A stretch of 64,000 bases of DNA from Desulfosporosinus sp. (GTDB taxonomy: Bacteria; Bacillota; Desulfitobacteriia; Desulfitobacteriales; Desulfitobacteriaceae). Shown here piece by piece: positions 54,851-58,894 of this stretch. The stretch is from positions 1 through 64,000 of the forward strand of contig JAIMKP010000014.1 of assembly GCA_020692355.1 (NCBI GenBank), read 5' to 3'. Under the pieces are notes generated by a model. The model had not been told where the DNA came from. It searched no databases and saw nothing but the letters and a program-made list of their open reading frames with translations. Position 1 is the first letter of the stretch. Every line of letters starts with the position of its first letter. The position numbers and the translations under genes are program-made.

Positions 54851-56065
54851 ATGCACGATTATGGTTTACGTTGGATTACGCTGGCTAATATCGATGAGGT
54901 CAAGCGGGCTTTGGGTCACATTGGTTCTGATCCCGGTGGGATTGCCTTAATGGCGGGGAAACCATTGGGGAGGGCGATAAAGCTAGAAGAGGTTCCGCTT
55001 AGGGTTGCACATATCCTAAAACAAGAGATGCTGGCAGCGGGAGGAGATGCTGCGGTTCATCGCAATGTCATCATCAACGCGATAGAACATACAGATGTTT
55101 TACTCATGGGCACACAGCGACAATTGGGACATTTGGCACAGAAACTCCTGGCGCAACCGTTTGGTCTGAAGGATATCGGACATTCCCTGAAAGATCTCTT
55201 AGCGAGGCTTGAGCCTCCGCGAAAGCGCATCTTAAATTGTCGAGGCAAGGAATTACCGTTAGGTAAGCGAACTTTGATCATGGGGATATTAAACATCACT
55301 CCGGATTCGTTTTCTGACGGCGGCAAGTTTTACTCGGAAAAAGAGGCACTGAATCATGCTTACCGTTTAATTGGGGAAGGCGCGGATATTCTCGATATTG
55401 GCGGCGAGTCTACGCGCCCAGGGCATAAAGTGGTGAGCGCGGAAGAGGAATGGGCCAGGCTGGAACCCGTTTTGCGCGTATTGGTGAGGGAGGTTCCGGT
55501 TCCCATTTCGGTAGATACCTATAAGGCGGAGGTTGCTGCTCAGGCTTTAGAGGCCGGAGCTCATATCATCAACGATATCTGGGGTCTGCAGAAGGATCCG
55601 GATATGGCGCGTGTGGTCGGGGAATACAGGGCACCGGTGGTTGTCATGCATAACCAGGAAGGAACATCCTACCACCATTTGCTGGGGGATATCCTTTCAT
55701 TTTTGCGCCGGAGCATTCTGTTAGCCGAAGAGCACGGCTTAGCAGGGGATCAAATCATTCTGGATCCCGGAATCGGGTTCGGTAAGACGACAGAGCAAAA
55801 TCTGGAAGTCATGGCTCGCTTGGCGGAGTTTAAAAGTTTGGGTCATCCGATTCTTCTCGGGACATCACGTAAATCTATGATTGGCAACACGCTGAACCTG
55901 CCGGTGGATGAGCGTTTAGAAGGAACCCTCGCGACCAGCGTGATGGGAGTGGAGGCTGCTGTGGATATTATACGGGTTCATGATGTTGAGTCTAATAAGC
56001 GGGCGATTATGATGGCTGATGCGATTTATCGCGGCCAAAGGGGGATGAATTATGGTGGAGCATGA
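54851..56065 (+). CDS. folP: Dihydropteroate synthase with N-terminal extension
   Basis: 404 residues. The DHPS TIM barrel covers about 138-400: LIMGILNITPDSFSDGG, DIGGESTRPGHK, INDIWGLQ, DPGIGFGKTTEQN, GTSRKSMIG. It condenses 4-aminobenzoate with dihydropterin pyrophosphate; this is the sulfonamide target. An extra domain of about 130 residues at the N terminus (from WITLANIDEVKRALGHIG) is unlike B. subtilis Sul (about 285 residues) but, to my knowledge, is widespread in Clostridia; its function is not known. folB overlaps the stop. Confidence 0.94.
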   Translation: MHDYGLRWITLANIDEVKRALGHIGSDPGGIALMAGKPLGRAIKLEEVPLRVAHILKQEMLAAGGDAAVHRNVIINAIEHTDVLLMGTQRQLGHLAQKLLAQPFGLKDIGHSLKDLLARLEPPRKRILNCRGKELPLGKRTLIMGILNITPDSFSDGGKFYSEKEALNHAYRLIGEGADILDIGGESTRPGHKVVSAEEEWARLEPVLRVLVREVPVPISVDTYKAEVAAQALEAGAHIINDIWGLQKDPDMARVVGEYRAPVVVMHNQEGTSYHHLLGDILSFLRRSILLAEEHGLAGDQIILDPGIGFGKTTEQNLEVMARLAEFKSLGHPILLGTSRKSMIGNTLNLPVDERLEGTLATSVMGVEAAVDIIRVHDVESNKRAIMMADAIYRGQRGMNYGGA

Positions 56066-56423
56066 TATCATCCACCTGCGCGGATTGGAGTTTTACGCCT
56101 ATCATGGAGTTTTGCCCGAGGAACAACGGCTTGGGCAGAAATTCATAGTGGATGTTGATCTCTATCATGATTTGCAGTCTGCAGGAATCTCGGATGAAGT
56201 GGGGGATACCCTCAATTATGCTGAGGTGTATGCTGAGATTAAGGGAGTCGTTGAGAGTGGCCCTTATCGCTTGCTGGAGCATCTTGCCGAACAGATAGCC
56301 GAGACACTTTTGCCAACGTTTCCCTGTGACGAAGTTCGGGTGGAGGTTCACAAGCCGCAGGCACCCGTTCCCGGGTTGTTCCGGGACATTTCTGTTGAGA
56401 TACGGCGGGGCCGGAAAGGATGA
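56052..56423 (+). CDS. folB: Dihydroneopterin aldolase
   Basis: 123 residues: LRGLEFYAYHGVLPEEQRLGQKF, LNYAEVYAEI and LEHLAEQIAE match FolB. It cleaves dihydroneopterin to the hydroxymethylpterin used by FolK. ATG 56052 lies within folP by 14 bases; folK overlaps its end by four. Confidence 0.95.
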   Translation: MVEHDIIHLRGLEFYAYHGVLPEEQRLGQKFIVDVDLYHDLQSAGISDEVGDTLNYAEVYAEIKGVVESGPYRLLEHLAEQIAETLLPTFPCDEVRVEVHKPQAPVPGLFRDISVEIRRGRKG

Positions 56424-56884
56424 ATGCCTATTTAAGCCTTGGAAGTAATATGGGGGATCGGGGTTACTACCTACATCAAGCCTTGGATCGCTTGCGAGAC
56501 GCAGACGTGACCCTACGTGGAGTTTCTAGTGTTTATGTGACTGAGCCTTGGGGGGGAGTGGAGCAGGAGAAGTTCTGGAATATTGCGGCTTGGATTGAAA
56601 CATCCCTAGAGCCTTTGGAGCTTCTTCATCTTTGCCAAGGCATTGAACAGGAACTCGGGAGAAAGCGGCTCGTACGTTGGGGCCCGCGAACCATTGACAT
56701 GGATATCCTTCTCTGTGATAATGTAACTATCCAGACTCCAGAGCTTAGCATACCTCACCCTCACTTAGAGGAGAGGGCGTTTGTCTTGACTCCATTGCGT
56801 GAAATCGCACCCTCGCTTATTCTGCCTTCAGGCCGCTTAATCCAGGAGGTAGCGGGAGAAGGGAAAGTTTGGCCGTTGTCCTAA
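56420..56884 (+). CDS. folK: 2-amino-4-hydroxy-6-hydroxymethyldihydropteridine pyrophosphokinase
   Basis: 154 residues: AYLSLGSNMGDRGYYL, YVTEPWGGVEQEKFWN, RWGPRTIDMDILL (metal-binding aspartates) and LSIPHPHLEERAFVL. It pyrophosphorylates the pterin before FolP acts. The folP-folB-folK order is the B. subtilis one. Confidence 0.95.
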   Translation: MNAYLSLGSNMGDRGYYLHQALDRLRDADVTLRGVSSVYVTEPWGGVEQEKFWNIAAWIETSLEPLELLHLCQGIEQELGRKRLVRWGPRTIDMDILLCDNVTIQTPELSIPHPHLEERAFVLTPLREIAPSLILPSGRLIQEVAGEGKVWPLS

Positions 56885-56904
56885 CAAACAGCATTGTGTT
56901 TGCG

Positions 56905-57044
56905 AGTTGTATTGTTAGGCGGTTGGGGTTACTCGGTTGGGTAAAATTTAATAAGGGAAAACCTTTAGATGCCGCTTGGATCGGAAATGACCGAGACGGT
57001 GAAGGATGGATGTTTTTGCACCTTCACGTTGTGAAGGTGTTTTT
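56905..57044 (+). promoter_or_regulatory. Candidate attenuator or riboswitch leader before DUF2520-panC
   Basis: A terminator hairpin at 57019-57044 sits only ten bases before the ribosome binding site of the next gene. Its 5' arm CCTTCAC (57021-57027) can also pair with GTGAAGG at 56999-57005, which would break the terminator: mutually exclusive structures. Upstream, GCGG (56919-56922)/CCGC (56971-56974) can enclose AAGG-GAAAA-CCTT, and TCGG/CCGA (56981-56984/56991-56994) forms another small stem. No known aptamer core (TPP, FMN, SAM, THF, cobalamin) is recognisable. The orphan pan motif, known upstream of pantothenate genes, is one candidate class. Confidence 0.55.
57019..57044 (+). terminator. 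Terminator hairpin between folK and the DUF2520 gene
   Basis: CACCTTCAC (57019-57027), loop GTT, GTGAAGGTG (57031-57039), then TTTTT. Perfect 9-bp stem. It could end the fol operon or act as the switchable part of the leader. Confidence 0.85.
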
Positions 57045-57065
57045 ATTTGTACCGGGGGTGATTAC

Positions 57066-57986
57066 GTGAAATTTGCCATTATCGGGACGGGAGTCGTCGG
57101 GACGGCCCTAGCAGTCAGCTTAGAGCGGGCGGGCCATGCTTGCGTGGGAGTCCACACCCGAAGCAGTGTCTCTTATCAGAGTTTTAGCCGCTACCTCGAT
57201 GTGCCCCATCTCTCTCTGGGAGAGTTGATTCCGCTGGCAGATTTGCTGTTCATCACAACGCAAGATGGGGTGATTCGCTCGGTTGCTGAGCACCTGGCGG
57301 CCCAAACACTCCAGCGTGATGGCCAAGTTTGGATCCATTGCTCAGGAGCGCATCCTTCGGGTATCTTGCGCGTGGAAGGGGTTCCGATCAGTTGTCTGTC
57401 GATACACCCTTTGCAGTCATTTGCCGATGTGGATAGGGCTGTGGAGCTTCTGGGGAAATCCCACTTCTCGGTGGAGGGAGATAGGCCGGAATTGGGAATG
57501 GCTTTGGTCAAGGACTTGGGGGGGATACCGCATTGGATTCCTACCGCCAATAAGGTGTTGTATCATGCTGGGGCTGTGATGGCTTCCAATTATGTGGTGG
57601 TGTTGGCTTCTCTAGCTACAAAGTTTTTGGAACTGGCAGGGTTTGAGCGCACTCAGGCGCTGGATGCCTTATTGCCCCTCATGGAAGGAGCGTTAAAGAA
57701 CCTCAGCCAGTTGGGGCTGCCCCAGGCCTTGACTGGCCCATTGGCACGAGGGGATGTGGACGTTGTCCGCAGCCACCTTGAACAGATGCCTGAGCCTTTG
57801 GCCAGCGTGTATTCCGCCTTAGCCCCAGAGGCACTGAACCTTGCCATACAAAAGTGGGCGGAAAATGGTAAGGAATATCCGGCTAGCGTTTATGCGGACA
57901 TGAGTCTTTTATTCGGTCGAGGGAGTGAGCCTAACACAGAACCAGACGAGGGTAAAGCGATGCCAAAGCCTGAACAGGTCGCGTAA
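57066..57986 (+). CDS. Rossmann-fold and DUF2520 domain protein
   Basis: 306 residues. An NAD(P)-binding start FAIIGTGVVGTALAVSLERAG, then the family stretch WIHCSGAHPSGIL and CLSIHPLQSFAD, and a helical DUF2520 domain (about 150-290). The fold resembles ketopantoate reductase and F420/NADP reductase-type enzymes. The gene is 65 nt before panC, so a ketopantoate-reductase (PanE) role is a reasonable guess but unproven. Start GTG 57066 follows GGGGGTGAT; the frame open from 57006 crosses the terminator. Confidence 0.85.
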   Translation: MKFAIIGTGVVGTALAVSLERAGHACVGVHTRSSVSYQSFSRYLDVPHLSLGELIPLADLLFITTQDGVIRSVAEHLAAQTLQRDGQVWIHCSGAHPSGILRVEGVPISCLSIHPLQSFADVDRAVELLGKSHFSVEGDRPELGMALVKDLGGIPHWIPTANKVLYHAGAVMASNYVVVLASLATKFLELAGFERTQALDALLPLMEGALKNLSQLGLPQALTGPLARGDVDVVRSHLEQMPEPLASVYSALAPEALNLAIQKWAENGKEYPASVYADMSLLFGRGSEPNTEPDEGKAMPKPEQVA

Positions 57987-58051: not shown

Positions 58052-58894
58052 ATGCAGAGTACAGAGAAGATTGCAGAGGTTCGTCAGATCATTCAAAAGG
58101 CTAGAGAGAAGGGCAGAAAGATAGCCCTAGTACCGACCATGGGGTATCTCCATGAAGGACATGTAGCTTTGGTTGCAGAGGCCAAAAAGGCAGAGGCTAT
58201 GGTTGTGATGAGTATTTTTGTCAATCCATTGCAATTTGGCCCGAATGAGGACTACGAGCGTTATCCACGCGATTTGGAGCGGGATGCTCGTATGGCTGAA
58301 GCAGCGGGGGTGGACCTGCTATTTCATCCGAAGGCGAAAGCCATGTACCCGGAGGCGATGTTGGCTACTGTCCAGGTAGGAGTCATGGAAAACGTGCTAT
58401 GTGGTGGGTCACGACCAGGGCACTTTCGGGGGGTGGCCACGGTTGTCAGTAAACTGTTTCATATCGTACAACCCGATCTTGCTTTTTTCGGGCTCAAGGA
58501 TTATCAGCAGTATCGGATCTTAAAGAAGATGGTAATGGATCTGAATTTTCCCATCGAGGTGATCGGGGTTCCCACGGTGCGAGAGGTGGACGGTTTAGCG
58601 AAGAGTTCTCGCAATGTCTATCTCTCTCCAAAGGAGCGGGCGGAAGCAGTGGTGCTGTATCAGAGCCTTGGCGAAGCGGCAGCCGCGATCCGGGATGGAC
58701 AAAAGGATCCGAGAAAAATTGAAAAATTAATCAGGAGCCGGGTTGACGAGACGAGCGGGAGGCTGGATTATGTTGAAGTCAGGGCAGCCTCCGATTTGAC
58801 AAACGTGGAGTGGATCGACCGTAGCGTGGTGATTGCCGTGGCAGTTTATTTTTCTTCGACACGCTTAATTGACAACCTGGTGGTTCAAGCTTAA
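58052..58894 (+). CDS. panC: Pantothenate synthetase
   Basis: 280 residues: ALVPTMGYLHEGHVAL (HxGH of the nucleotidyltransferase fold), SIFVNPLQFGPNEDYERYPR, GHFRGVATVV, FGLKDYQQ and SSRNVYLS. It joins pantoate with beta-alanine. panB and panD are not in the window, which is unusual for a panC operon; they must lie elsewhere. Confidence 0.96.
   Translation: MQSTEKIAEVRQIIQKAREKGRKIALVPTMGYLHEGHVALVAEAKKAEAMVVMSIFVNPLQFGPNEDYERYPRDLERDARMAEAAGVDLLFHPKAKAMYPEAMLATVQVGVMENVLCGGSRPGHFRGVATVVSKLFHIVQPDLAFFGLKDYQQYRILKKMVMDLNFPIEVIGVPTVREVDGLAKSSRNVYLSPKERAEAVVLYQSLGEAAAAIRDGQKDPRKIEKLIRSRVDETSGRLDYVEVRAASDLTNVEWIDRSVVIAVAVYFSSTRLIDNLVVQA

Follow-up and report, generated by a model that had tools for sequence, protein, structure and literature searches.

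The window, by which we mean the whole stretch of 64,000 nucleotides of Desulfosporosinus sp. DNA that was analysed, contains the genes folK, DUF2520 and panC in this order (Table 1). The leader studied here spans the intergenic region from the folK stop codon, which ends at 56884, to the GTG start codon of DUF2520 at 57066, and is counted from 56885, the first base past that stop codon. Further upstream, positions 54851–56065 code for a dihydropteroate synthase whose N-terminus carries a long extension (about 120 residues). The nearest solved chains of the DUF2520 protein are 2i76 ("hypothetical protein") and 3d1l ("putative NADP oxidoreductase"). Such operons otherwise lack the ketopantoate reductase step, which makes DUF2520 a strong candidate for this missing enzyme, and probably the enzyme itself; in B. 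subtilis this step is assigned to PanE, PanG and IlvC (PMC11487621).

Table 1. Features of the leader and its neighbour genes (positions in the window).
Feature	Coordinates	Strand	Remarks
folK (HPPK)	56420..56884	+	Pfam PF01288, 4.6e-41; gene just 5' of the leader
Promoter-like site within folK	56694..56722	+	TTGACA-17-GATAAT, TG before the -10 element; 11/12 matches
Pan hairpin 1 (hp1)	56885..56914	+	CAA-ACAGC-A-UU / loop / GA-GUUGU-A-UUG; 10 pairs, both bulged A's
Spacer hp1–hp2	56915..56971	+	57 nt
Pan hairpin 2 (hp2)	56972..56999	+	CCG-CUUGG-A-UC / loop / GA-CCGAG-A-CGG; both bulged A's
Tail GUGAAGG, antiterminator 5' strand	56999..57005	+	first G also closes hp2
Intrinsic terminator hairpin (57018–57040) and U tract	57018..57044	+	scanner call, 10 pairs
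CCUUCAC, antiterminator 3' strand and terminator 5' arm	57021..57027	+	
DUF2520 (Rossmann protein), GTG start	57066..57986	+	PF10728, 1.7e-33; PF10727, 7.3e-16
panC, pantoate-beta-alanine ligase	58052..58894	+	PF02569, 7e-107

The promoter-like site within folK is a near-consensus extended -10 site (0.4 expected from shuffles) and, judged by its sequence, a candidate promoter of the leader transcript. The site overlaps a stretch that codes for folK residues that are likely conserved, and it may therefore have arisen by chance. Two other features of the region were considered and rejected, namely an alternative, in-frame start of DUF2520 upstream at 57006, and a leader peptide of 19 amino acids from the ATG at 57010 behind GAAGG, an ATG that is missing in genome G009 and in most other leaders.

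Two pan hairpins in the leader

Two hairpins, hp1 and hp2, stand in the leader, each with two bulged A residues (A56893 and A56911 in hp1; A56980 and A56996 in hp2), as in the pan motif (Rfam RF01749), which is described as a stem, mostly in tandem, in which two bulged A residues are conserved (Weinberg et al., 2010, PMC2864571). The preliminary description, which covered 56905–57065, had proposed nested stems as a possible sensing domain; upstream stems do exist, but that interval starts too late and the stems form two separate hairpins. We described the pan unit as 3 + 5 pairs, a 5' bulged A, 2 pairs, a loop and a 3' bulged A, and hp1 and hp2 each have all ten descriptor pairs. Chance rarely gives a hairpin as good as hp1 with its two bulged A's: one of 3000 shuffles of the 140 upstream bases did so, and none of 3000 shuffles of the intergenic sequence.

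An independent covariance model of hp1, trained on 34 sequences from genomes outside the window's genus, gave exactly two matches on 56600–57100 (both strands, filters off, E up to 1), at hp1 (10.9 bits) and at hp2 (6.1 bits). As the only matches in this region, hp1 and hp2 stand in the tandem arrangement of RF01749. The model is informative only in this 501-base test; over the whole 64-kb window it gave no match at E 10, because a model of 28 positions is too weak for 64 kb. In the 34 relatives, which were chosen with the structure descriptor, a choice favouring pairing, 98.5% of the hp1 cells are paired and two-sided changes occur in nine of the ten pairs; pairing was 27–40% in a control in which the partner was slid by one to three columns. 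The descriptor's picking score of 8 was reached by 85% of real and 1.6% of shuffled sequences. The z-score of the folding energy of the whole leader is only -2.25, and with so modest a value the case rests on comparison and not on folding energy.

At the Rfam gathering threshold, no match was found in the window. A permissive search gave the leader a pan match of 29.9 bits (E 0.0015 in a 251-base search), which lies below the curated gathering score of 36.2, a library cut-off that does not belong to the published pan definition. This match is anchored on 56970–57003 and the first hairpin is not truly aligned: the model puts hairpin 1 in the spacer, 40 nt off the real hp1, probably because of the spacer length (spacers in relatives are mostly 20–113 nt). 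The only other Rfam match in the leader is meaningless (E 2.4), and pan is the only credible one. The pan motif had been suggested beforehand from the gene set, with a search by the Rfam model as a check; the suggestion held, with a sub-threshold match and both two-bulged-A hairpins intact, and the check returned the family at a score short of the cut-off. The pantothenate gene context had been read correctly as well, as the leader precedes DUF2520-panC like pan RNAs elsewhere, and RF01749 is placed upstream of panB, panC or panD operons.

A first search at the DNA level, with the leader as query, turned up conserved copies within the family. Leaders of the same family before DUF2520-panC score up to 59.5 bits and carry an hp2 nearly identical to that of the window, and a copy before panD in a sister species (G001) scores 41.9 bits, above the threshold. 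The leader is thus homologous to pan members that pass the threshold. We conclude that a divergent tandem pan RNA of sub-threshold score lies between folK and DUF2520; it is a real conserved regulatory leader and a further member of a known orphan RNA class.

With the Rfam model, a pan match was found in 44 of the family's 46 genomes, in 61 of 74 from the order and in 165 of the 398 genomes drawn from the phylum. A pattern scan for hp2, among the genomes it names, found relatives in Paradesulfitobacterium ferrireducens and Desulfosporosinus, and also in Chloroflexota, deltaproteobacteria, Nitrospinia and others. The window's own genome has two pan RNAs, the leader described here and one before panD (TIGR00223), which has its own terminator and a GAAGG/CCTTC pairing. 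The same genome carries two tandem, divergent panB genes (L187/L188; G000:C78:1878-3596), and no pan RNA was found near either of these copies.

A terminator and a competing antiterminator

Before DUF2520, a terminator hairpin, CACCTTCAC-GTT-GTGAAGGTG, occupies 57019–57039 and is followed by TTTTT at 57040–57044; direct reading of the sequence agreed to the base with the hairpin and T run reported in the preliminary description. The tail GTGAAGG repeats part of the terminator 3' arm exactly and is perfectly complementary, over 7 bp, to CCTTCAC in the 5' arm. Since terminator and antiterminator both use 57021–57027, they are mutually exclusive, with predicted energies of -14.4 and -8.8 kcal/mol, respectively. 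The two alternative hairpins claimed earlier are thus confirmed, the pairing being exact and prefix folding switching between them.

Prefix folding takes the window leader as a transcript that grows step by step and folds it at equilibrium at each length; its values describe equilibrium, not kinetics. With the polymerase at 57027–57037, the antiterminator had a probability of 0.88–0.99 and hp2 one of 0.03–0.15; from 57041 on, the terminator had a probability of 0.96–0.98 and hp2 of about 0.8. In this model, therefore, hp2 accompanies the terminator and opposes the antiterminator, and a factor stabilising hp2 before 57027 would favour termination. The overlap between hp2 and the antiterminator is a single nucleotide in the window (G56999) and three in many relatives, so that direct competition is weaker here than in many family members; in the folding model the two are coupled all the same. 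The same model favours hp1 together with the antiterminator but not with the terminator, a preference that leaves the role of hp1 unexplained by secondary structure. In sequence comparison and in the folding model, a sensing domain is coupled to an expression platform through mutually exclusive pairing.

To place this layout in the pan family, we gathered 183 pan matches with flanking DNA. The set includes a few false matches; three weak Rfam matches (L065, L073, L123) lie inside coding sequence and are false positives. A terminator-like hairpin was called at most 170 nt behind 177 of the 183, an upper figure, as the search was permissive, accepting a wide range of hairpin shapes, and ran without a control on shuffled sequence. 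Among 122 dereplicated leaders, the tail/arm score was 6.79, as against 4.98 ± 0.10 for shuffled arms and 6.12 ± 0.11 for swapped arms (0 of 5000). In a stricter set (n = 108), an antiterminator of at least 5 contiguous bp was present in 84 leaders, 70 of which use bases from the 3' side of the hp2 basal stem, and about a fifth of leaders are without a 5-bp antiterminator; the native tail/arm duplexes of this set had a mean energy of -8.6 kcal/mol, compared with -7.3 ± 0.18 kcal/mol after swapping (0 of 5000). Swaps between nearest relatives, which control for descent, were worse in 29 cases and better in 14 (sign p = 0.016; Wilcoxon p = 0.006). The matching pairs differ by class: GUGAAGG:CCUUCAC in the window, CAGAGGG:CCUUCUG before panB, and CGGAAGG:CCUUCCG before panC-panD. 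The DUF2520-panC class by itself gave no covariation signal, since its tails and arms show almost no variation: 1900 of 5000 swaps were as good as the native pairs. An alignment of eight leaders of the order shows no change in the tail G-GA-GG or the arm CACCTTCAC, and GTGAAGG...CACCTTCAC is invariant or nearly so across other genera and families of the order. The preliminary description had staked its proposal on this pairing in relatives; it is conserved in the order and covaries across the pan family, but not within DUF2520-panC. Taken across these leaders, the terminator/antiterminator platform is a general one behind pan RNAs.

These comparisons bear on the simpler explanation, voiced from the start, that the hairpin is the fol operon terminator only and the upstream complementarity a by-product. 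FolK does end directly in front of the leader and the terminator is canonical; indeed, folK lies just upstream in 56 of the 60 DUF2520-panC pan leaders, and the terminator there also serves to end the fol unit. However, the same layout follows pan RNAs that have no detected upstream fol genes (panB and panD leaders), tail and arm are matched to one another from leader to leader, and both pan hairpins are conserved. A fol terminator and nothing else is largely refuted and, in our judgement, very improbable: the hairpin also ends fol transcripts, but it is more than that.

Two kinds of leader show other features. In L197 and L201 (genomes G341 and G153), no convincing terminator follows the pan RNA and the pan tail GGGAGG resembles the ribosome binding site of the ECF gene, which suggests a translational version of the switch. 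In the panB leaders L009–L028, a conserved inverted repeat, CCTCTCCT...AGGAGG, lies behind the terminator; it could mask the panB ribosome binding site and be a possible second control point.

Genes behind pan RNAs and the proposed signal

We consider it likely that the leader is a tandem pan RNA acting as a transcription attenuator for DUF2520-panC. Hp1 and hp2, each with two bulged A's, would be the sensing part. A signal, whether a small molecule or an RNA-binding protein, would hold hp2 and make the tail GUGAAGG unavailable, upon which the terminator would form and the genes would be OFF; without the signal, the tail would pair with the terminator 5' arm, hp2 would open, and read-through would put the genes ON. 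Binding is expected to favour hp2, hence this sign of regulation.

The genes next to the 183 matches were DUF2520-panC (60), DUF2520-panB (47), panB (26), panB-panC (12), panC-panD (11), panC (5), panD (3), DUF2520 alone (3) and others (16), with DUF2520 as the commonest first gene (110 of 183). Pan RNAs above the threshold also precede birA-ECF S component-coaX (L195, L198, L199), bioY-ECF-coaX (L200), ECF-coaX (L196), ECF alone (L197, L201), and an OPT transporter followed by a type II pantothenate kinase (L192–L194). The kinase identities are secure: that of L192 matches NF009842 (type II pantothenate kinase) with 278.8 bits against a cut-off of 234, and that of L199 matches NF009847 (type III) with 390.8 bits against 381. 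The OPT and type II kinase genes lie at L192:237-2759, L193 and L194 (genomes G261, G377 and G438), and the OPT-family protein is a candidate importer of pantothenate or pantetheine. For the ECF protein at L195, L196, L198, L199 and L200, the context suggests a PanT-like role, which makes it a candidate pantothenate importer; the libraries assign it no substrate.

As pantothenate kinases and importers, too, stand behind pan RNAs of this layout, we infer an end product of the pathway as the signal, with CoA or a derivative the most likely. The two classes of pantothenate kinase among the targets argue for an end product, and a single RNA in control of pantothenate synthesis, its import and the committed kinase would fit feedback by CoA (or a near derivative) better than by pantothenate. 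We propose, tentatively and as a possibility that we put somewhat short of even, that coenzyme A (or a direct CoA precursor) is the ligand of pan RNAs, which would then be a widespread class of natural riboswitches in which two small hairpins make one binding site and switch a conserved terminator, with pantothenate synthesis, import and phosphorylation as targets, including the OPT transporter and the type II kinase.

Pantothenate itself (or pantoate) would suit most of the targets, which make or, by context, import pantothenate, and we hold it to be an unlikely signal in place of CoA. The pan RNA, mostly in the same layout, also stands before operons with type II and type III pantothenate kinases, and shutting off a kinase when its substrate is plentiful would be poor design, whereas CoA feedback explains all targets; the force of this argument is lessened by the position of the kinase genes, which are second or later in their operons and may be passengers. 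The effector might also be a dimeric RNA-binding protein, responsive to CoA or pantothenate, that binds the pan hairpins and sets terminator against antiterminator. The hairpins are small, simple and tandem, with variable loops and widely varying spacers, the main text of Weinberg et al. (2010, PMC2864571) preferred a dimeric protein from the tandem layout, and the attenuator layout fits a protein equally well. Yet no candidate protein is known or emerged in passing here, and the motif spans several phyla, which would require an equally widespread regulator; such a protein is, to our mind, a somewhat doubtful effector.

CoA, the signal we favour, has been named as a conspicuous gap among riboswitch ligands in reviews (PMC9971707, PMC10043782), and a literature search found no signal assigned to the pan motif since its description in 2010. 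A general expression platform, as the comparison suggests, means that a simple termination assay can address the pan signal, and the predicted sign of regulation and the target set make the question testable as well. As far as the literature searched tells, the terminator/antiterminator platform and the kinase and transporter targets are new; for the platform, compared with the main text of the 2010 paper, we claim no priority.

With the RF01749 pan motif, the window leader shares the tandem two-bulged-A hairpins in the 5' leader of pantothenate genes and the conserved tail GAaGG after the second hairpin; it differs in its score below the cut-off, its 57-nt hairpin spacer and DUF2520 as the first gene. 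The pan section in the main text of PMC2864571 does not mention a terminator/antiterminator arrangement. Unlike OFF riboswitch attenuators, the leader has two tiny hairpins and no complex aptamer as its sensing part, and its effector may be a protein; like them, it has a sensing hairpin, an antiterminator and a terminator that compete for shared strands.
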